From: Melioribacteraceae bacterium
GTDB lineage: Bacteria; Bacteroidota; Ignavibacteria; Ignavibacteriales; Melioribacteraceae
Assembly: GCA_022181065.1 (NCBI GenBank)
Contig: BQMY01000088.1
Location: forward strand, 1-64,000
Length of the DNA stretch: 64,000 nucleotides
Direction of reading: 5' to 3'
Shown here piece after piece: positions 1-48,874 of this stretch (the stretch's first letter is position 1; every line of letters begins with the position of its first letter). A model generated the notes under the pieces. The model searched no databases, was not told the DNA's origin, and worked only from the letters and a program-made list of their open reading frames with translations. The position numbers and the translations under genes were made by a program.

Positions 1-302
1 AATTCACGGTAATCGTTGAAGTTTTTTTCTGTTCGGTCGGTTATGAAAGATAAATTAATATTTCCCTCGTCGTGGTAAACTGTTCCCCCACCCGATATTC
101 TTCTAGCCAACGGTATTTCCGACTGAAGAAGACAGGATATATTTGCTTCCTTCCACGGATTCTGGTTTCTACCTATTATTACGGAGGGTGCATTTACATA
201 TATGAAAATTATTGTACCGCCTTCGGCAAAAGATTTAACAAAATATTCTTCCGAGGCAATATTGAAGAAAGGATTGTTTGAGGGGCTGATATATAGCTTC
301 AT
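1..302 (-). CDS. lplA: Lipoate-protein ligase A, 3' end cut by window edge
   Basis: Attaches lipoate (through lipoyl-AMP) to lipoyl domains of 2-oxoacid dehydrogenases and the glycine cleavage H protein, in the cytoplasm. I translated the minus strand by hand. About 100 residues are visible, starting MKLYISPSNNPFFNIASEEY, then PSVIIGRNQNPWKEAN and the family hallmark RRISGGGTVYHDEGN, the lipoyl-AMP-binding loop. The C-terminal two thirds lie outside the window. The ATG follows the TGA of ytxJ directly with no spacer, so the two are almost certainly translationally coupled. The identification is firm from the motifs. Whether the missing part includes the accessory C-terminal domain cannot be seen. 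Confidence 0.9.
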   Translation of the reverse strand, partial: MKLYISPSNNPFFNIASEEYFVKSFAEGGTIIFIYVNAPSVIIGRNQNPWKEANISCLLQSEIPLARRISGGGTVYHDEGNINLSFITDRTEKNFNDYRE

Positions 303-644
303 TCAGCTTGTAGCCTCATCCAGGTAGCTTCTTGTAATTGAATAATGACTGGTATCCGAAAGAACATTATTATTTTCGTCAAGCACTAAAATCTGGGGGG
401 AAGCATGAACCACACCGGTTTTAACCGCGATGATACTACTTAGTTCTTTTCCAAATATTACATCAACAACGGCTGCGATAACATTTTCACCGGAAAAGTG
501 CTCTTTCCACATTTCGAATTCGCGTTCGGCATTGTGACTTATCCCGCAAATGGGGCTGTACTTAAAAATTATTTTTTTCGCGGATTTATCTTCAAAAAAT
601 TTAGTCAAGTCCTCTTTGGAGGTTAGTTCAACAAATTTTAACAT
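303..644 (-). CDS. ytxJ: Bacillithiol-system redox-active protein YtxJ (monothiol thioredoxin-like)
   Basis: A 113-residue thioredoxin-fold protein of the YtxJ/DUF2847 type, proposed to act as a monothiol bacilliredoxin that removes bacillithiol from protein thiols. The visible active-site stretch is FKYSPICGISHNAEREF. It has a single cysteine followed by G-I-S, not a CXXC pair, which fits the family. No signal peptide is seen, so it should be cytoplasmic. It lies 10 bases after a small unknown gene and abuts lplA (TGA then ATG), so the three form an operon. Bacillithiol synthesis genes (bshA/B/C) are not in the window. Their presence elsewhere in the genome is expected but unseen. Confidence 0.8.
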   Translation of the reverse strand: MLKFVELTSKEDLTKFFEDKSAKKIIFKYSPICGISHNAEREFEMWKEHFSGENVIAAVVDVIFGKELSSIIAVKTGVVHASPQILVLDENNNVLSDTSHYSITRSYLDEATS

Positions 645-654
645 AAAATATTAA

Positions 655-924
655 TTACACTCCATACATTTTTTTCATTTTAAGCAGATTTACCGCGTCA
701 TCAAATGAGAAGCGCGTCCTTGTAAGAAATCGTTCATCCCGTTTGGCAAGTGGCAACTCCTCTTCCCATTCCATATTTGAGTTGAAAACCTGCTGCGTAG
801 ATGTATTTACAATGGCCCAGCTGCTTGTACCGTTTTTCCTTGCTTTCATGACTAACTGAATATCACCTTCCACCGCAAATTTCAGAGCGGCATCAAACCA
901 TTTGGCTTTTTCCTCAACTGTCAT
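655..924 (-). CDS. Small conserved-looking protein of unknown function (89 aa)
   Basis: I do not recognise this protein. It is soluble, with no signal peptide and no cysteine, and carries a charged N-terminal helix (TVEEKAKWFDAALKF), a central beta-rich part and a C-terminal FLTRTRFSFDDAVNLLKMKK stretch. A GAGG ribosome-binding site lies about six bases before the ATG, and the gene is 10 bases upstream of ytxJ, so it is probably transcribed with ytxJ and lplA. Coding is supported by the RBS, the tight spacing and balanced residue composition. The context suggests thiol or lipoyl metabolism, but that is only guilt by association. Confidence 0.6.
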   Translation of the reverse strand: MTVEEKAKWFDAALKFAVEGDIQLVMKARKNGTSSWAIVNTSTQQVFNSNMEWEEELPLAKRDERFLTRTRFSFDDAVNLLKMKKMYGV

Positions 925-1001
925 ATTATCCTCAAAATTTAATTCACTATGTTATTATCGGGTAAGATGATAGTTTTTAAACTTATTATTTTGTCCAAGT
1001 T

Positions 1002-34543: not shown

Positions 34544-34726
34544 TTTATCCTTTCGTTTAGTTATTAAAAGAAATTCTTATTTCCAGACTTAAAGTAATTT
34601 TATCCCTAAATTTTTAATGATTACGTTGAACTAAAACGAAACTTTTGCGTCTAATCACTTAGAAACAATATAAGATGTTAAATAATTTCTTTTTTTAGAA
34701 AAAAAATTGCCGTTACCGGAGTGACT

Positions 34727-36427
34727 ATGAAAAAACGGTTGATATATGTCCAGTTTCTGCTGATGATTATTACCGGGATTACTTTTTCTCAGGAAAATAG
34801 TGTACAAACAGATGATATATACCCCGGAGAAATATCCATAAAAGGTTTTTCTCTTTCTCAAAGTACCGATGTTACAATCGAAGGTACTTTCGCCATGTAC
34901 GATTCGTGGGAACACAACACCTTTTTTTATGCGTGGATTATAAGATCGGATAACAGAAAAGTTGTTTGGCACCTGCTAAACGATTATGACCCGGATGATG
35001 AAGGTGAACATGAAATTAAAACAACTGTCGGGTTACGTGAAGGCGATTACGAACTCTATTACGCCGGCTCATATGATTATGGTACAGAAATAAATAATCT
35101 GGGTGACCTGCTTGATAAAATATTTTCCGGTAAATCCGAAAAAAGACGACGCGCAAGACGTGACTACCATATCAAGGTTTACGCTCCAGGTAAAATCCTG
35201 GCAGAACGAGACCCTTACGAACTTGTTGATAATTATACCAAAGACGCGCTTATAGCTGTTAATCGAGTAGGAAACTATGAAAATATTGAAAAACGTTTCT
35301 CGCTCAGCCGCGAAACTGATGTACGAATTTACGGACTTGGCGAGGGGAGAGGTAATTCAATTTTTGATTATGCATGGATCTATAATCCGGTTACAAATGA
35401 AAAAGTTTGGCAAATGGATCCCCGTCGCGGACGTTACGCAGGCGGTGGTGAAAAAAATCTTTACTACGACGATGAAATCACGCTTCCAAAGGGTAACTAT
35501 ATATTAACTTATGTAACAGACGATAGCCACGCATTCGGCAACTGGAATGTTATGCCACCGGAAGACCCGCAATTTTGGGGAGTTACTCTCTTTCCTGTAA
35601 ATCCGGCAGATAAGAAGAATCTGGAAGAATTTGATGAAGAAATTATTCCCAACCCGGTTATATCTATAAATAAAGTATGGGATAATGAATATATATCACA
35701 AGGTTTTGAGCTGGAAGAAAGTATGGATATCCGCATTCTCGCGTTAGGTGAGGGCGATGATGGCAGACTCGCGGATTACGGCTGGATCATCAACGCGGAA
35801 ACTCGCGAAACAATTTGGGATATGAACAGAGAAAAGACTGAATTCGCCGGTGGCGCGACAAAAAATAGAATGGTTGATGAAACAATCCGCCTTGAAGAAG
35901 GCAAGTATATTGTTTTTTATAAAACTGATGGTTCCCACTCATTTGAAGAGTGGAATTCTACTCCTCCCTTCCTGAAAGATAAATGGGGTATTACAATCTG
36001 GACCGCCGATAAAAATGATGAAGACAGGGTAACTCTCTTTTCAGAACGCGATTACAAAAACGAAAATGTTCTCGCTCAAATTACCAGAGTAAGAGATGAT
36101 GAAGATATTGAAAGATTATTCAGTCTTAATGGTGATACAAGACTTAGAATAATTGCCGTTGGCGAAGGTGACCGGCAGGGTATGTTTGATTTTGGCTGGA
36201 TTAAAAATGAAGTTAGCGGTAGAATTGTCTGGGATATGACTTACAGAAAAACCACTCATGCCGGGGGAGCCAAGAAAAACCGCCTGTTCAACGATGTGAT
36301 TATTCTTCCCGCCGGTGAATATAGTCTTCACTACAAAACCGATGACTCTCATTCATACAGGGATTGGAACTCAAGTCCGCCTGATGATGAAGAAATGTAT
36401 GGTATTACTATTTTTTATGAAAAATAA
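34727..36427 (+). CDS. Secreted protein with four tandem ~115-residue repeats, unknown family
   Basis: A 566-aa exported protein (signal MKKRLIYVQFLLMIITGIT..S). I do not recognise the family. The ATG was chosen over a GTG two codons upstream because CCGGAG lies just before it. Residues ~25-140 form a degenerate first repeat, and about 174-291, 310-426 and 448-566 are three clear ones. Each runs: a start like ENIEKRFSLSRETDVRIY, then GEG, DYAWI (or DYGWI/DFGWI), VWDM, AGG..KN, a Gly-anchored strand (LPAGEYSLHYKTDDSHS), WNSSPP and WGITI (or YGITI). The pattern suggests a beta-sandwich domain with a shared ligand site built from Asp-Asp-Ser-His and Trp-Asn. It is monocistronic with its own terminator. 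Surface or periplasmic binding is possible, with no catalytic evidence. Confidence 0.8.
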   Translation: MKKRLIYVQFLLMIITGITFSQENSVQTDDIYPGEISIKGFSLSQSTDVTIEGTFAMYDSWEHNTFFYAWIIRSDNRKVVWHLLNDYDPDDEGEHEIKTTVGLREGDYELYYAGSYDYGTEINNLGDLLDKIFSGKSEKRRRARRDYHIKVYAPGKILAERDPYELVDNYTKDALIAVNRVGNYENIEKRFSLSRETDVRIYGLGEGRGNSIFDYAWIYNPVTNEKVWQMDPRRGRYAGGGEKNLYYDDEITLPKGNYILTYVTDDSHAFGNWNVMPPEDPQFWGVTLFPVNPADKKNLEEFDEEIIPNPVISINKVWDNEYISQGFELEESMDIRILALGEGDDGRLADYGWIINAETRETIWDMNREKTEFAGGATKNRMVDETIRLEEGKYIVFYKTDGSHSFEEWNSTPPFLKDKWGITIWTADKNDEDRVTLFSERDYKNENVLAQITRVRDDEDIERLFSLNGDTRLRIIAVGEGDRQGMFDFGWIKNEVSGRIVWDMTYRKTTHAGGAKKNRLFNDVIILPAGEYSLHYKTDDSHSYRDWNSSPPDDEEMYGITIFYEK

Positions 36428-41542: not shown

Positions 41543-42883
41543 ATGTTAGATTACGTTCAAAATGTGCTTGAAGAAGTTAAAGCCAAAAACCCGAGTGAAC
41601 CCGAATTTCATCAGGCGGTTGAAGAAGTTGCCGAATCACTTGATATTGTTTTTCAGAGACATCCCGAATATGTTTCTGCTGATATTCTTAGAAGAATGGT
41701 TGAACCCGAACGTGTAATTATGTTCCGTGTTCCCTGGATGGATGATCAGGGTGATGTACACGTTAACCGTGGTTTCAGAATAGAGATGAACAGCGCTATC
41801 GGTCCGTACAAGGGCGGATTAAGATTTCACCCTTCTGTTAACCTTGGTATTTTAAAATTTCTCGCTTTTGAGCAAGTATTCAAAAACAGCCTTACAACAT
41901 TGCCTATGGGCGGTGGTAAAGGTGGTTCCGATTTCGACCCGAAAGGTAAAAGTGATAACGAAGTTATGCGTTTCAGCCAAAGTTTTATGACCGAACTTTC
42001 ACGCCACGTTGGTCCGAATACTGACGTTCCTGCCGGTGATATCGGTGTTGGCGCACGTGAAATAGGATATTTGTTTGGTCAGTATAAAAGAATCAGGAAC
42101 GAATTCACCGGTGTACTTACAGGTAAAGGTATCAACTGGGGTGGTTCATTAATTCGTCCGGAAGCTACAGGTTTTGGTTGTGTTTATTTCGCGGAAGAGA
42201 TGCTTAAAACCAGAAATACTTCATTTGATGGTAAAGTAGTAGCTGTGTCAGGTTTCGGTAACGTTGCCTGGGGTGCGGTTCAGAAAGTTAATGAACTTGG
42301 CGGTAAAGTAGTCACCCTGTCAGGTCCTGACGGTTTCGTTTATGATCCTGATGGTATTACCGGCGAAAAAGTTGACTATATGCTTAAACTAAGAGCAAGC
42401 AACAAAGACGCAGTTGAAGATTACGCTAAAGAATTCAAGGTTGAATTCCATCCGGGTAAAAAACCATGGGGTATAAAGGTTGACGTTGCTCTTCCTTGTG
42501 CGACACAAAACGAAATTTATCCTGAAGACGCTAAAGAATTGTTGAAAAACGGATGTATGGCAATTTGTGAAGGCGCGAACATGCCAACCACACTTGAAGC
42601 TTATCATATTATTGATGAAGCCGGTATTCTCTACGCTCCGGGCAAAGCTTCCAATGCAGGTGGTGTTGCAACTTCCGGACTTGAAATGTCACAGAACAGT
42701 ATGCGCCTGCCATGGTCAAGAGAAGAAGTGGACAATCGTTTACATGAAATTATGATCCGTATCCATGAAACATGTCTTACAACTTCCGAAAGATTCGGAA
42801 CTCCTGGAAATTATGTTAATGGAGCAAACATTGCAGGCTTCCTTAAAGTTGCCGACGCTATGTTAGACCAGGGTCTGGTTTAA
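41543..42883 (+). CDS. gdhA: Glutamate dehydrogenase, hexameric GdhA type
   Basis: Catalyses reversible amination of 2-oxoglutarate to glutamate, the ammonium entry point. At 446 aa it is a small-subunit hexameric type I enzyme. The N-terminal part has NRGFRIEMNSAIGPYKGGLR, the substrate/catalytic lysine loop LPMGGGKGGSDFDPKG, and VPAGDIGVGAREIGYL. The Rossmann motif is VSGFGNVAWGA, and LPCATQNEI lies further on. The architecture matches NADP-dependent biosynthetic GdhA, though cofactor choice cannot be proved here. AGGATG precedes the ATG. The next gene starts 67 bases downstream after a strong hairpin. Confidence 0.95.
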   Translation: MLDYVQNVLEEVKAKNPSEPEFHQAVEEVAESLDIVFQRHPEYVSADILRRMVEPERVIMFRVPWMDDQGDVHVNRGFRIEMNSAIGPYKGGLRFHPSVNLGILKFLAFEQVFKNSLTTLPMGGGKGGSDFDPKGKSDNEVMRFSQSFMTELSRHVGPNTDVPAGDIGVGAREIGYLFGQYKRIRNEFTGVLTGKGINWGGSLIRPEATGFGCVYFAEEMLKTRNTSFDGKVVAVSGFGNVAWGAVQKVNELGGKVVTLSGPDGFVYDPDGITGEKVDYMLKLRASNKDAVEDYAKEFKVEFHPGKKPWGIKVDVALPCATQNEIYPEDAKELLKNGCMAICEGANMPTTLEAYHIIDEAGILYAPGKASNAGGVATSGLEMSQNSMRLPWSREEVDNRLHEIMIRIHETCLTTSERFGTPGNYVNGANIAGFLKVADAMLDQGLV

Positions 42884-42950: not shown

Positions 42951-45929
42951 ATGAAGCTGCAAGAAAAACCACTCGAAGCCGATATTTTCGGTAGTCGCGT
43001 AAAGCGATTTCAAAAATTGATGCGATTCAAGATTCGTGATATTCTTCTCGTATCCAGTTTATACGACAGCTATTTATTTGAAGAAGATGGCAGGTTATAC
43101 GAGCTTATCCGTGAAGAATACCAGACTTTGAACCTCTCGCACGCTCCCGAGATCACTCACGTTACAACCGGTAGTGAAGCGATAGAACTCGCAAAACAGG
43201 AAAACAGATTCGATCTGATAATAACCACAATGCACATTGAAGATATGCATGTTTCCCGATTTTCGAAACTGGTAAGGGATGAGGGTCTCAAACAACCGAT
43301 GATCCTTCTCGCCTACGATAATCAGGAAAGAAAGGATATCATCAATAACTACAATGCAGAAATTTTTGAACGAATTTTTATCTGGCAAGGTGATTACCGA
43401 CTCCTCATCGGTATAATCAAATATGTAGAAGATCGCCTTAATGTTGAATGCGATACCGAATCTGTAGGTGTGCAGGTTATTATTCTTATTGAAGATAACG
43501 TTAAATTTTACTCCTCCTATCTGCCGCTTATCTACACCGAAATTTTCAAACAATCGCAGCGTCTTATCTCTGAAGGGGTTAACGTTACCCACAGATTTCT
43601 GAGGATGCGAGCGCGTCCAAAAATTCTTTTATGTACCACTTACGATGAAGCGTGGGATTATTTCCTCAAATACCGTGAGTATATTCTTGGAATAATATCG
43701 GATATAAATTTCAAACGTGGTGGAGTAAAAGACCCTGAAGCGGGTATAAATTTCGCCGTTGAAGTTAAAAAAATGCAGGAAGATATTCCGATACTTCTGC
43801 AATCAAGCAATTTTGAATTCGAACAGCGCGCATTTGAAATTGGCGCTTCATTTTTGCTCAAAGACTCTCCATGGCTACTACGGCAACTGCGCGAATTTAT
43901 GATCAGTAACTTCAGTTTCGGCGATTTTATCTTTAAGCTTGAAGATAGCAGACAAGTTGGCAGAGCTGAAAACCTCGCTTCTCTTGTTGATGCGCTGAAG
44001 ACCGTACCCGATGAAAGTTTGATCTACCATTCGGAAAGGAACCACTTCTCCAACTGGTTAAAAGCAAGAACCGAATTCTGGCTCGCAAATAAACTTCGAC
44101 CAAAAAAAGTAGTTGATTTCACTGATACAAAAGAACTTAGAGAAAATCTGATCAACACAATCCAGTTATACCTTGAGATGCGTCAAAGAGGAACAATTAC
44201 CGAGTTCAGGAGAGATTCTTACGATCCCCGCAACAGTTTCGCGCGGATCGGCGGAGGTTCTCTCGGTGGTAAGGCTCGCGGTTTAGGATTCATAAATACA
44301 CTAATAAGTCATTATGGAATAAGAGAGAAATTCAAGGGAGTTGAAGTTTACGTACCATCAGCGGTAGTTCTCGCGACGGATGTTTTCGACCAGTTCATGG
44401 AAGAGAACAATCTCTTTAATTTCGCGATGAATGAAACGGATGATGCATCAATACTCAACCGCTTCCTTAACGCGGTATTTTTCCCGGAAGAAATCATAGA
44501 AAAACTTAAAGAATTTCTTGATATAACTCACGAACCCCTTGCCATACGCTCTTCCTCACTGCTTGAAGATTCGCAATTTCAGCCTTTCGCGGGTGTATAT
44601 GAAACCTTCATGATACCCAATAATGATCCCGATCCTGATGTGCGCCTGAATGAACTGCTGCAATGTATCAAGGGTGTTTATGCCTCAACATTCTCGCGTT
44701 CAGCAAAAGATTATCTTAAAGCTACATCCTACAGACTCGAAGAAGAAAAAATGGCTGTTATAATCCAAAGCCTTGTCGGTTCGAAACGAGGTTCACGATT
44801 TTACCCTGATTTTGCGGGTGTTGCCAAGTCATATAACTTCTACCCTATTCCTCCGCAAAAGGCTACCGATGGGATAGCGCTTGTTGCGCTCGGATTAGGC
44901 AAGACAGTTGTTGATGGAGGTAATAATGTTCGATTCTGCCCGAAGTTCCCTAAACATCTGGTACAATTTTTCTCAACAAAAGAAACACTAAAAAATGCGC
45001 AGCAAAACTTTTTCGCGCTTGATTACGATGGTCATCTTGAAAAAGATGCCACCCGTCCGCCCGATATGCTTGTGAAAAACTATAAACTGGAACAAGCCGA
45101 AAAAGATGGGACACTCTTTTATGTCGGGTCAACATACTCCCCCGAAAATGATGCTGTTTATGATGGCATTTCGAGAGAAGGTAATCGTGTAGTAACATTT
45201 GCACCGATTCTGAAACACAAGATTTTCCCGCTACCCGAAATATTGAGTCTGCTCCTTGATATTGGCTCATGGGGAATGGGAACGCATGTTGAAATTGAAT
45301 TTGCGGTGAACACCGCGGTTCGAGGGAAAACACCAAAAGAGTTTGCTATGCTGCAGATGCGACCAATGGTTCTTAATCGCGAGAGTGAGGATATTGATTT
45401 CAACTCACTTGATAAAGAAAAACTGGTTTGTTACAGTAAGCAGGTACTTGGAAATGGTGTTATAAATGAAATTTATGACATGGTTGTTGTTGATATGGAG
45501 AACTATGACCGCGGTAAAAGTAAACAGGTCGCATTGGAAGTTGCCCATTTAAACAAAAAACTTGTCGAAGAAAAGAAGCCCTACATACTTATCGGCGTTG
45601 GCAGATGGGGCAGTCTCGATCCATGGCTGGGAATTCCCGTAAGCTGGGATCAGATATCTGGCGCCAGTGTAATCATTGAATCAGGATTTAAAGACTTCAA
45701 AGTAACCCCCTCTCAAGGTTCTCACTTTTTTCAGAATATAACTTCCTTCCGAATTGCTTATTTTACAGTTAACAGTGAACATCAGGATGGGAAAATTGAT
45801 TGGGGCTGGCTTTCTGAACAACCGGCGGAAGAGGAAAAAACTTTTACCAGGCATCTAAGGTTTAATCAACAAATTATTACTAAAGTAAGTGGCTCACAAA
45901 ACATCGGAATAATCTATAAACCAGAATAG
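42951..45929 (+). CDS. Double receiver domain / PEP-synthase-like ATP-grasp protein
   Basis: A 992-aa cytoplasmic multidomain protein. Residues ~27-160 form a receiver-like domain with a Thr where the phospho-acceptor Asp should be (FDLIITTMHIEDM). Residues ~165-325 form a second receiver with acidic pocket ILIEDN, acceptor Asp in GIISDINFKRGG and lysine in ASFLLKDS. From ~430 comes a PEP/pyruvate-binding (PPDK/PEP synthase N-terminal) ATP-grasp domain: GGGSLGGKARGLGFI, LAIRSSSLLEDS, PFAGVYETF. The C-terminal ~150 residues contain GRWGSLDPWLGIP. I see no phosphohistidine swivel motif and no PEP-binding TIM barrel, so it is not a complete PEP synthase. It sits between gdhA and a kinase/regulator pair. 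A signal-controlled phosphotransfer or ligase role is plausible but inferred. Confidence 0.75.
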   Translation: MKLQEKPLEADIFGSRVKRFQKLMRFKIRDILLVSSLYDSYLFEEDGRLYELIREEYQTLNLSHAPEITHVTTGSEAIELAKQENRFDLIITTMHIEDMHVSRFSKLVRDEGLKQPMILLAYDNQERKDIINNYNAEIFERIFIWQGDYRLLIGIIKYVEDRLNVECDTESVGVQVIILIEDNVKFYSSYLPLIYTEIFKQSQRLISEGVNVTHRFLRMRARPKILLCTTYDEAWDYFLKYREYILGIISDINFKRGGVKDPEAGINFAVEVKKMQEDIPILLQSSNFEFEQRAFEIGASFLLKDSPWLLRQLREFMISNFSFGDFIFKLEDSRQVGRAENLASLVDALKTVPDESLIYHSERNHFSNWLKARTEFWLANKLRPKKVVDFTDTKELRENLINTIQLYLEMRQRGTITEFRRDSYDPRNSFARIGGGSLGGKARGLGFINTLISHYGIREKFKGVEVYVPSAVVLATDVFDQFMEENNLFNFAMNETDDASILNRFLNAVFFPEEIIEKLKEFLDITHEPLAIRSSSLLEDSQFQPFAGVYETFMIPNNDPDPDVRLNELLQCIKGVYASTFSRSAKDYLKATSYRLEEEKMAVIIQSLVGSKRGSRFYPDFAGVAKSYNFYPIPPQKATDGIALVALGLGKTVVDGGNNVRFCPKFPKHLVQFFSTKETLKNAQQNFFALDYDGHLEKDATRPPDMLVKNYKLEQAEKDGTLFYVGSTYSPENDAVYDGISREGNRVVTFAPILKHKIFPLPEILSLLLDIGSWGMGTHVEIEFAVNTAVRGKTPKEFAMLQMRPMVLNRESEDIDFNSLDKEKLVCYSKQVLGNGVINEIYDMVVVDMENYDRGKSKQVALEVAHLNKKLVEEKKPYILIGVGRWGSLDPWLGIPVSWDQISGASVIIESGFKDFKVTPSQGSHFFQNITSFRIAYFTVNSEHQDGKIDWGWLSEQPAEEEKTFTRHLRFNQQIITKVSGSQNIGIIYKPE

Positions 45930-45951: not shown

Positions 45952-48249
45952 ATGATTCGGAATATGAAAATAACGAACAAACTCTTGCTGGTGGCAATGG
46001 GTTTTCTTATTCCGATCGCCCTTTTATTCCAACTCCTTATTTCAGAAAAAAACATTGCCATCGAATTTGCCCAAAAGGAACTGGTCGGAACTCAATTTTT
46101 AGTTCCACTTTACTCTATTTCGAGTTACACACCTATTCATTACCTTATTGCCGATAATATTCTGGTTGAGGATACACCCTCTCAAACCCGTCTTGCGGAA
46201 ATTCAACAGATCATTGACAGAAACCTCGACGAAATCAAATCATTAAAAAACGACTTATCTAATCCCGGTCTCACTTTAGGCAGATTGAACGCATTTGAAA
46301 ACCAATGGAAGAAGTTGAAGGTTTCTACGGAGAAGGGAACACATGCATCATTATTGAACATGCATGAATCTTTCCGTTACGATATTAAAAATATAATAAG
46401 TCATATCGGGGATGAGTCAAACCTGAAGCTCGATCCCGATTTGGATAGTTATTATCTGATGATTTCTGTAATGGAAACTATCCCTGAACATTCAGATAAT
46501 ATTTACAAAATCCTCAAATTATTAAATCTTGCCAATAATTCTGACAAAGTGCTTCTCCCGAAAGTATTAGATATCGAGAAACAAAAGTTGTTAAACAGTA
46601 TCACTGATCTTAGAGCCGGTTTCGAGGCGGTATATAATAAAAATGGTGATGGTACCATAAAAAACACACTTGATATCCATCTCGTTGAACAAGAAGTATT
46701 GAGCGAGAACCTTATTTCTATGCTGGATCGATATTCTGTAGTGAATAACTGGTTCGAAAAAAACAAAATTATCGAATATGGCATCGAAGTCGCGGAAGCC
46801 AATTATCTCTTCTGGAAAATATCAAATAATTCGCTACAAAATTTGTTGAAGGATCGGATTGCGGGATTTAATGAAAGAAAACTTGTCACTTTATCTCTTG
46901 TTTCATTTGTGATATTTCTTACCCTCGCGCTGTTCCTTTTTATTATGCGAAACATTACCCGCTCGGTTAAAACTCTCGATAATGCCGCCAACAGGGTAAT
47001 TCAGGGTGCGCTTAATGTGGAAGTACCTGTCAAGTCCAAAGATGAGCTTGGCAATCTCGGTTCAAATTTTAATAAAATGATAAAATTTATCGGAAGGAAT
47101 ATCCGGGAAAAAACCGAAAAACTCGTCGAAACCGAACATGCGCTTCACGATGAGAGGATTAAACACAATCAGGCTGAGGAAGCCTTATCCAAGTCAGAGA
47201 TGCTGTTCAGTAAGGTATGGGGGATTTCCGCTGATGGTATGCGTCTTACCAATGCAGAGGGTAGTATTGTTACGGTGAATGACGCGTATTGTAAAATTGT
47301 TGGACTGACCAAAAGTGAACTGGAAGGCTCAAATTTTTCTATTGTATATAAAGAGGAAAACAGACATACTTTTCAGGCTATGTACACTGCCGATCTGAAA
47401 CACAATAAGATAAAACCTCATTTCGAACGCGAGTCAGCATTGTGGAATGGTAAAAAGATATGGTTCTCATTTTCAAATTCTTACCTGAGGTTATCGAGCG
47501 GTGTTTTGGTACTGAGTATAATAAAGGATATTACTGAGCGTAAAAAAGCTGAATTTGAGCTCAAGGAATCAACAATGCAATTACGTAATCTGGCTTCTCA
47601 CTTGCAATCCATCAGAGAGGAAGAACGCCGGATGATAGCAAGGGAAATTCACGATGAACTTGGTCAGGTACTAACGGTCCTGAAAATTCAGATTTCCCTG
47701 CTCTCCAACAAATTGAGGAAAGATCAGACAGAAATTAAGGAGAAAATCTATTCTGTCTCCGAAGTTATTGATCAAACAGTTGAAACAGTACAGCGAATAA
47801 CTTCAAAACTTCGTCCGGGAATTCTTGATGATCTCGGACTCGTGCCCGCGATTGAATGGCAGGCACAGGATTTTGAATCGAAAACCGGGATTATATGTGA
47901 TTGTGAACTTCCCCCTGACGATATCGAACTGGATCAGGAGAAGGTTACCGCTGTTTTCAGAATATTCCAGGAAGCGCTTACCAACGTTGCGCGTCACGCA
48001 AACGCTAACACAGTTCGTGTGCGATTAAAAACGGAAGGCGATGTGCTTATGGTTCGCATCACTGATAATGGTCGGGGCATTACTGAAAAAGAAATTGCTG
48101 ATAATAATTCTCTCGGTTTACTTGGAATGAAGGAACGAGCTATGCTTTTTAACGGTGAAGTTAAAATCACAGGTGAACCAAATAAGGGTTCATCAGTCAG
48201 CGTTTCTATACCATTGAACAAACTAAATACGGTTGAAAAAGATGATTAA
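45952..48249 (+). CDS. Membrane sensor histidine kinase, NarX/DegS-like (HisKA_3)
   Basis: A 765-aa inner-membrane kinase. A membrane helix at ~11-30, a ~270-residue periplasmic helical sensor region and a second membrane helix at ~308-330 are followed by HAMP (~332-385, KSKDELGNLGSNFNKMI). PAS (~415-525) comes next, then the HisKA_3 dimerisation domain with phospho-acceptor His567 in MIAREIHDELGQ. A HATPase_c domain follows, with NVARHANANTV, ITDNGRGI and SLGLLGMKERA. It overlaps the response regulator gene by 8 bases, so the two form a coupled pair. The periplasmic signal is unknown. Confidence 0.92.
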   Translation: MIRNMKITNKLLLVAMGFLIPIALLFQLLISEKNIAIEFAQKELVGTQFLVPLYSISSYTPIHYLIADNILVEDTPSQTRLAEIQQIIDRNLDEIKSLKNDLSNPGLTLGRLNAFENQWKKLKVSTEKGTHASLLNMHESFRYDIKNIISHIGDESNLKLDPDLDSYYLMISVMETIPEHSDNIYKILKLLNLANNSDKVLLPKVLDIEKQKLLNSITDLRAGFEAVYNKNGDGTIKNTLDIHLVEQEVLSENLISMLDRYSVVNNWFEKNKIIEYGIEVAEANYLFWKISNNSLQNLLKDRIAGFNERKLVTLSLVSFVIFLTLALFLFIMRNITRSVKTLDNAANRVIQGALNVEVPVKSKDELGNLGSNFNKMIKFIGRNIREKTEKLVETEHALHDERIKHNQAEEALSKSEMLFSKVWGISADGMRLTNAEGSIVTVNDAYCKIVGLTKSELEGSNFSIVYKEENRHTFQAMYTADLKHNKIKPHFERESALWNGKKIWFSFSNSYLRLSSGVLVLSIIKDITERKKAEFELKESTMQLRNLASHLQSIREEERRMIAREIHDELGQVLTVLKIQISLLSNKLRKDQTEIKEKIYSVSEVIDQTVETVQRITSKLRPGILDDLGLVPAIEWQAQDFESKTGIICDCELPPDDIELDQEKVTAVFRIFQEALTNVARHANANTVRVRLKTEGDVLMVRITDNGRGITEKEIADNNSLGLLGMKERAMLFNGEVKITGEPNKGSSVSVSIPLNKLNTVEKDD

Positions 48250-48874
48250 CATTCTTATTGCTGATGATCACGCTATTGTACGTGAAGGTTTGAAACAAAT
48301 TTTATCCGAGGATGATATTCTCGTTACGGGCGAGGCTGGTGATGCCGCGGAACTATTTCAGCTTCTTCAGAATAATTCTTACGATATGATTGTGCTTGAT
48401 ATAAATATGCCCGGTAAAACCGGTCTGGAAGCTTTAAAGGAAATCAAGATGATGCATCATGGAATTCCTGTACTTATTCTCAGCATGTATAGCGAAGACC
48501 AGTATGGACTGCGAGCAATCAAAGCTGGAGCTTCCGGATATCTGAAAAAAGTTAGCGCTCCTGATGAGTTGGTGAAAGCTATCAAGAAAATTATCAGCGG
48601 TGGCAAATACATCAGCGCCTCACTAGCTGAAAACCTGGCTGATAACTTTGGAATGGACTATCATTCTTCGCCGCATGAAACGCTTTCTGACAGGGAGTAT
48701 GAAATTTTATGTAAAATAGCTGCCGGACAAACGGCAGATTCTATTGCGGAAGAGCTATCAATTTCGGTACATACTGTTTACTCTTACCGCAACAGAATCC
48801 TCGAAAAAATGAATATGAAATCGAATGTTGAGCTTACACGCTATGCTATAAAAAACAAACTTATGGAAGTTTAA
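48242..48874 (+). CDS. NarL/FixJ-family response regulator
   Basis: A 210-aa DNA-binding regulator paired with the kinase before it. The start is the ATG within ATGATTAA, where it overlaps the kinase stop. A TTG three codons earlier is possible but less likely. The receiver domain spans 1-120 with acidic residues in IADDHAIV, the acceptor Asp53 in MIVLDINMPGKTG and Lys in ASGYLKK. The LuxR-type helix-turn-helix at ~148-205 has LSDREYEILCKIAAGQT and AEELSISVHTVYSYRNRIL. Its stop codon overlaps the convergent esterase gene's stop within TTAA. Confidence 0.93.
   Translation: MINILIADDHAIVREGLKQILSEDDILVTGEAGDAAELFQLLQNNSYDMIVLDINMPGKTGLEALKEIKMMHHGIPVLILSMYSEDQYGLRAIKAGASGYLKKVSAPDELVKAIKKIISGGKYISASLAENLADNFGMDYHSSPHETLSDREYEILCKIAAGQTADSIAEELSISVHTVYSYRNRILEKMNMKSNVELTRYAIKNKLMEV

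Follow-up and report, generated by a model that had tools for sequence, protein, structure and literature searches.

The window analysed here comprises 64,000 nucleotides of contig BQMY01000088.1 from Melioribacteraceae bacterium (assembly GCA_022181065.1), a representative of Ignavibacteria within the Bacteroidota. At positions 42951–45929 of the forward strand, there is an intact open reading frame coding for a protein of 992 amino acids (aa), in which two receivers precede an ATP-grasp domain of the kind known from phosphoenolpyruvate (PEP) synthase (PEPS) and pyruvate phosphate dikinase (PPDK). A gene for glutamate dehydrogenase (GDH) lies directly upstream. We propose that the 992-aa protein is a phosphotransferase of the dikinase type that is controlled through a receiver and acts either on GDH or on its behalf, representing an uncharacterised GDH-linked branch of PEPS/PPDK-type dikinases; we give this reading an even chance of being correct. 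The features of the protein are as follows:

42951–45929, forward strand: the 992-aa protein, with receiver 1, receiver 2, DUF5752-like linker, PPDK_N ATP-grasp and swivel-fold C-terminal domain in this order (open reading frame, Pfam, AlphaFold2 model)
43032–43445, forward strand: receiver 1 (residues 28–165), degenerate, with conserved TT[ML]HIEDMH and IFIWQGD (Pfam Response_reg at 58–139, conservation)
43467–43925, forward strand: receiver 2 (residues 173–325), intact, with E181, D182, D251, K304 and an insertion between beta1 and beta3 (VIA-align, conservation)
43962–44186, forward strand: DUF5752-like stretch (residues 338–412; Pfam PF19027, 26.5 bits, cut-off 23)
44259–45389, forward strand: PPDK_N ATP-grasp domain (residues 437–813; Pfam PF01326, superposition, conservation)
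45408–45926, forward strand: C-terminal domain of predicted swivel fold (residues 820–992), with the motifs GxGRWGSxDPWLGIPV and PSQG[S/T]HFFQN (domain model, VIA-align)
45723–45725, forward strand: codon of H925, a candidate phospho-histidine (conservation, position in the model)

The AlphaFold2 model of the whole chain, built on an alignment of 61 relatives, had a mean pLDDT of 82 and a pTM of 0.64. The whole architecture is kept in more than 90 genomes, a degree of conservation far beyond chance. The ATP-grasp domain was readily recognised by its Pfam profile (E 4e-35, 122 bits against a cut-off of 27), and hhalign aligned this part with PEPS at 99%. None of the 61 close relatives deviates at K441, R533, E539, D540, E781, E783, Q802 or R804, while divergent members keep the ATP-site residues in 26–27 of 27 sequences as K, R, E, D, E/D (at 781), E, Q and R, with one K at 804. 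By motif, we take K441, R533, E781, E783, Q802 and R804 to be Lys22, Arg92, Asp321, Glu323, Gln335 and Arg337 of PPDK. K22A and R337A mutants of PPDK occur among the PDB titles of the structural matches, and Lys22 of RPH is essential (PMC4844700). Judging from these residues, the nucleotide site is not destroyed; its destruction would have spoken against the initial annotation, made without database searches. In the model, the ATP-grasp part superposes on RPH, PEPS and PPDK with Z 18–27. The complete model aligns with PEP synthase 2ols (418..992 on 4..467, Z 26.5) and with PPDK 1dik (429..992 on 7..511, Z 18.5); as modelled, this places the ATP-grasp and central domains in the same order, through residue 992. 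A dikinase-type core is, in our estimation, quite probable.

Modelled alone, the C-terminal residues 812–992 reached a pLDDT of 90.7 and a pTM of 0.89. When the top 1000 chains of a Foldseek search were re-aligned with VIA-align, the first nine rows were all phosphohistidine-type domains (Z 7.4–5.9), spanning most of the model. The best match was PPDK 5jvj (Z 7.4, rmsd 3.5, 123 aligned), and the rows included RPH 5fbu (Z 7.3, rmsd 3.2, 112 aligned), the isolated phosphocarrier domain of PPDK solved by NMR, 2fm4 (Z 7.2, rmsd 4.0, 116 aligned), and the C-domain of pyruvate kinase 2e28 (Z 7.0), the remainder being other PPDKs and EI-Ntr (Z 5.9). H925 is invariant in 61/61 close and 27/27 divergent relatives. 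In the model, the motif G923-[S/T]924-H925-F-F falls on helix 924–932, of which H925 is the second residue, directly after strand 905–911; the T-S-H motif of PPDK is likewise found at the start of a helix following a strand. Such a picture suggests that the C-terminal region is a divergent phosphohistidine domain, a fold-level assignment at moderate Z. Since a predicted swivel fold is combined here with an invariant G-[S/T]-H, the phosphocarrier is probably built in.

The PEP barrel (PF02896), in contrast, was not found by Pfam in the 992-aa chain; in the whole genome, it matches only two other proteins, C82 and C122. Two defining features are thus lacking, namely, the barrel and a histidine domain recognisable by PF00391, and the 992-aa protein is therefore not a member of PEPS/PPDK. 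C82, a separate 915-aa protein on contig 82, has all three PPDK parts, so that pyruvate chemistry is covered elsewhere in the genome. A second copy of the protein under study, a paralogue with 61% identity, is located on contig 81. RefSeq gives homologues from Parabacteroides and Phocaeicola the product name "PEP/pyruvate-binding domain-containing protein". The initial annotation had described the swivel histidine motif and the PEP barrel as missing: the barrel and the canonical motif are indeed lacking, but the C-terminal 175 residues form, in the model, the swivel-fold domain carrying H925. Of the two domains whose discovery there would have spoken against that description, the phosphohistidine domain appeared at the fold level only, the profile searches giving no sequence-level match and the structural model placing phosphohistidine swivel domains first, and the barrel did not appear at all. 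A PADLOC search gave no match.

The N-terminal half agrees with the earlier description of a degenerate receiver and an intact receiver joined to a PPDK_N ATP-grasp domain in one chain. The Pfam match of receiver 1 (residues 58–139) scores 25.1 bits, below the cut-off of 30.2, and the same domain of the own-genome paralogue passes with 35.2 bits. Receiver 1 lacks the phospho-acceptor Asp; T93 occupies its position in a motif alignment to CheY-type receivers. Receiver 2 of this protein was not detected by the Pfam hidden Markov model. Its model, however, superposes on solved Spo0F-type receivers with Z 14.5 and a root-mean-square deviation of 1.9–2.2 Å (VIA-align), and all 61 sequences keep the acidic pair E181/D182, D251 and K304. 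Receiver 2 thus has the fold, the acidic pair, the phospho-Asp and the conserved Lys of a receiver. The motif HxERNHFSNWLKARTEF is strongly conserved in the DUF5752-like stretch of the same 61 sequences; no paper on DUF5752 was found in the open-access literature.

Three neighbouring genes have to be considered together with the 992-aa protein:

41543–42883, forward strand: gdh446, glutamate dehydrogenase, the direct upstream partner (Pfam PF00208/PF02812; adjacency conserved)
45952–48249, forward strand: sensor histidine kinase (HAMP-PAS-HisKA_3-HATPase), 22 bp downstream of the dikinase-like gene (Pfam; cluster c4)
48233–48874, forward strand: LuxR/NarL-type response regulator, forming a pair with the histidine kinase (Pfam Response_reg and GerE; cluster c3)

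For comparison, we refer to the long-form, 992-aa-type gene as P and to its paralogues in Ignavibacteria as P1 and P2; 76 of the relatives came from species genomes, and wherever a title names a group, it is Ignavibacteria. The gene order gdh(446)–P1–[histidine kinase–regulator]–gdh(453)–P2–gdh(415) recurs among them in full or in part. A GDH gene was found within 1 kb of 66 of the 92 copies with enough flanking sequence (median gap 115 bp), on the same strand in 62 of these 66 cases. Among copies having an upstream GDH, it was always of the 446 type for P1 (46/46) and of the 453 type for P2 (27/27), whereas the downstream partners were gdh453 and gdh415. The second copy in the genome under study has its own gdh453 and gdh415 on contig 81. 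Within the class, the long form is present in 36/37 genomes with this type of GDH versus 0/36 genomes without it (n = 73; Fisher 4e-20, uncorrected for phylogeny), and the joint absence of both occurs inside families f1, f2 and f10. In the sole class genome with the GDH and without P (G152), no remnant of P was seen on the GDH contig. The conservation of the gdhA neighbourhood, proposed earlier as a check, thus proved very strong. In several relatives, the histidine kinase gene (cluster c4) is found at the corresponding position. The kinase is a candidate input to receiver 2. Taken together, these data make a direct functional link to GDH somewhat more probable than its absence.

Two side observations concern these loci. 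On contig 81, gdh453 is preceded by a gene for a 137-aa single-domain receiver-like protein (L120 10654-11064). This protein resembles the regulator at 48233 (33% identity) and may serve as the input of the second cluster, where no histidine kinase is adjacent. As for GDH itself, S286 and D289 (within GDH residues 286–291) are near-universal in P1-linked enzymes, both in Ignavibacteria and in five sequences from Bacteroidales, and P-less GDHs rarely or never have them, but as markers of the link to P they are confounded by phylogeny and were not used.

Beyond the long form, the family includes several other kinds of proteins, and the core common to all of them is the ATP-grasp domain plus the predicted swivel-fold domain, always without the PEP barrel. 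A short form of 580 aa consists of this core only, without receivers, and has a GDH neighbour. A form of ~1060 aa has a different N-terminus and adjoins a different GDH (428 aa); most of its members carry a C-terminal Polbeta-type nucleotidyltransferase, as exemplified by L107:6374-9562 from Ignavibacteria. In Bacteroidales, a paralogue of ~1150 aa, P', is often in tandem with P. A calcineurin-like phosphoesterase of family A5 was found in 11/296 genomes, always on the same contig as the short or the ~1060-aa form and about 5 kb or less from it (coordinates; Pfam); relatives with this enzyme include L106, L107, L108, L110, L118, L119 and L182. It is probably a dedicated partner. In the last of these loci, from Bacteroidales, gdh, P', a stand-alone nucleotidyltransferase (L182:5697-6545), the phosphoesterase, P and another gdh are neighbours. 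The window genome has neither the A5 phosphoesterase nor the ~1060-aa form. Matches to the P family were present in 87/99 Bacteroidales genomes and GDH in 91/99, with GDH within 3 kb of 20/72 P and 19/47 P' copies; a random gene would be expected to lie this close in about 0.3% of cases. The homologue in Parabacteroides and Phocaeicola is oriented divergently to gdhA, and a second gdh is nearby.

Keeping this in mind, we would picture the following mechanism. The ATP-grasp domain would bind ATP and move its beta-phosphate to H925 of the adjoining swivel domain, yielding AMP and Pi; the swivel domain would then carry the phosphate to a non-pyruvate acceptor, most likely the neighbouring GDH or a GDH-bound ligand. 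Such a transfer would act as a switch for ammonia assimilation or for the catabolism of glutamate, and the activity might be gated through D251 of receiver 2, probably by the downstream histidine kinase. What the analysis shows is the order of the domains, an ATP site and a second receiver that are both intact, a C-terminal domain of swivel type at the fold level with its invariant G-[S/T]-H, and a conserved GDH linkage specific to each paralogue; that H925 is phosphorylated, that GDH is the target or gains from the reaction, and that a receiver gates the activity is what we infer. Signalling control is suggested by the receivers together with the sensor kinase next to them; GDH is suggested as target or beneficiary by the paralogue-specific pairing and by the nucleotidyltransferase and phosphoesterase partners of relatives.

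Several results weigh against this reading. Regarding the C-terminal domain, other swivel-fold families come next in the VIA-align rows at Z 5–5.7, and a Z of 7.4 is attainable by unrelated folds; chaperonin apical domains, aconitase X, the CPS small subunit and LD-carboxypeptidase among the lower rows likewise belong to the swivelling beta/beta/alpha fold of SCOP. A whole-genome search with PF00391, the canonical histidine domain, gave no match in the 992-aa protein even at E 10, and hhalign left the C-terminal part unaligned when the domain or the whole core was compared with PEP-utilizer, PEPS and PPDK profiles. Foldseek, run with the domain alone, found nothing significant in the PDB (best E 0.09). 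H925 stands where the catalytic histidine would sit, an equivalence resting on topology and position in the model, not on a residue-level structural alignment. On the side of GDH, a putative acceptor, 26/92 copies have no GDH gene within 1 kb, most Bacteroidales copies have none nearby, and, outside the class, a GDH of the 446 type is retained in Flavobacteria-type genomes that have no P. The last observation implies that GDH does not need P everywhere and that the dependence is lineage-specific. The neighbours of the copies without GDH were varied, with no common theme found. Further searches with the C-terminal domain gave nothing significant among viral structures (Foldseek) and only chance matches in a profile search against PDB sequences; the non-appearance of other phosphotransferase families in Foldseek is not evidence against them.

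The main rival explanation, which we nevertheless consider unlikely, is that the dikinase passes its phosphate to a small molecule which GDH produces or consumes, namely, glutamate, 2-oxoglutarate or a derivative; GDH would then be a supplier, and the receivers would only tune the flux. The closest characterised relatives with this architecture indeed phosphorylate small molecules, as is the case for RPH (PMC4844700) and for HpeHI and phenylphosphate synthase (PMC12167813). However, PPDK_N ends at residue 813 and the swivel-fold domain begins near 820, leaving no place for an intervening acceptor-binding domain such as that of RPH and the phenolic dikinases. Moreover, the link holds for several GDH subfamilies (446, 453, 415 and 428 aa types), and no dedicated downstream enzyme recurs. 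A phosphorylation-controlled kinase or ligase without its own phosphocarrier, acting on another substrate by direct ligation or through a separate carrier protein, had been the proposal of the initial annotation. The control by phosphorylation, the intact ATP-grasp site and the non-pyruvate acceptor of that proposal are supported here, and split systems such as HpeI plus HpeH are known (PMC12167813); the missing PF00391 match and hhalign support fit it as well, as does the absence of the canonical GGxTSHAA motif, replaced by G-[S/T]-H-F-F. Yet this latter motif is invariant in every subfamily within the predicted C-terminal swivel fold, no separate carrier gene is conserved in the neighbourhood, and the only own-genome proteins matching PF00391 are the PPDK C82 and the PTS EI-like protein C122, which makes the carrier-less version improbable.

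It might also be supposed that H925~P passes its phosphate to D251 of receiver 2, turning the protein into an ATP-grasp-powered "histidine kinase" with a signalling output and with GDH bound allosterically. Histidine and aspartate phospho-sites do coexist in one chain, and receiver 2 is intact, but the 580-aa short form keeps the same core and the GDH neighbour without any receivers, and we regard such an internal phosphorelay as quite improbable. Finally, the protein might be a catalytically silent scaffold, in which the fold is kept, ATP turnover is unused and the gene lies beside that for GDH only because the two are transcribed together. The loss of the canonical histidine motif would agree with this. 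The invariance of the nucleotide-site residues and H925 across deeply divergent subfamilies, as well as a paralogue pairing that survives rearrangement (the second copy on another contig retains gdh453 and gdh415), speak against it, and we find a scaffold very improbable.

Returning to the proposed GDH-linked dikinase, its parts are of known kinds, while the open-access papers searched describe neither their combination nor the degenerate swivel domain nor the linkage to GDH; a search for GDH together with PEP synthase, PPDK, phosphohistidine or PEP/pyruvate-binding domains in that literature gave nothing relevant. One candidate, BT1971, was rejected, being a catalase. PEPS and PPDK share with the 992-aa protein the ATP-grasp catalytic residues and, as predicted for the latter, a swivel-fold domain directly after, in the same order, but the latter lacks the PEP/pyruvate barrel, its swivel domain is unrecognisable by sequence, and two receivers stand in front. 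PorX-type fusions represent another receiver–enzyme combination in the Bacteroidota, and the receiver part matches (Z 13.4); they differ in having a single receiver and a different, PglZ phosphatase-like enzyme domain. GlnE and GlnD are dedicated covalent-modification enzymes controlling glutamine synthetase and PII. As nitrogen-assimilation modifiers, they offer an analogy only, and some GDH-linked relatives of the 992-aa protein carry a Polbeta-type nucleotidyltransferase domain; the catalytic domains of GlnE and GlnD are different, the target here would be GDH, and no homology is claimed. RPH (PMC4844700) combines an ATP-grasp domain with a phosphohistidine swivel domain and a non-pyruvate acceptor, has no PEP barrel and gave the best ATP-grasp superposition (Z 26.7), but in RPH a large drug-binding domain separates these two domains, the histidine domain is recognisable by sequence and receivers are absent. 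The phenolic dikinases HpeHI and phenylphosphate synthase PpsAB (PMC12167813) likewise uncouple dikinase chemistry from PEP, HpeI 9goj being among the top matches (Z 19.5); unlike the 992-aa protein, they consist of two chains and have their own substrate-binding domain and aromatic substrates. In RPH, HpeHI and phenylphosphate synthase, the beta-phosphate of ATP travels via a swivel histidine to a non-pyruvate acceptor (PMC4844700, PMC12167813).

It is tempting to extend this picture to a phylum-wide Bacteroidota system in which ATP-grasp/swivel dikinases, either receiver-controlled or nucleotidyltransferase-fused and accompanied by a dedicated phosphoesterase, reversibly modify GDHs, although we hold this broader scenario only tentatively and think it is rather doubtful. 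If true, reversible GDH modification would amount to a so far unrecognised parallel to the control of nitrogen assimilation by GlnE and GlnD. Bacteroidales, an order with major gut bacteria, usually carry a homologue alongside GDH in the same genome. If the protein controls GDH, this would show how these bacteria switch ammonia assimilation, and the dikinase superfamily would be extended by an acceptor other than PEP and by a variant gated through a receiver.

A few minor observations were made along the way. In L027, L046 and L060, P is followed downstream by four genes coding for proteins of ~282, ~1060–1120, ~230 and ~360 aa; in L046, the starts of these genes resemble, by eye, subunits of an NADH-linked enzyme, namely, flavin and ferredoxin ones of the NuoE/NuoF kind. 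Two PLSDB "plasmids", L122 (NZ_OY725790.1) and L124 (OY726056.1), carry ruvC, gdhA, rapZ and other core genes and look like mislabelled chromosomal contigs. Elsewhere in the window, positions 34721–36427 code for a 568-aa protein with, by eye, about four imperfect repeats of the form [DY]xxWI..........W.M.......GG.

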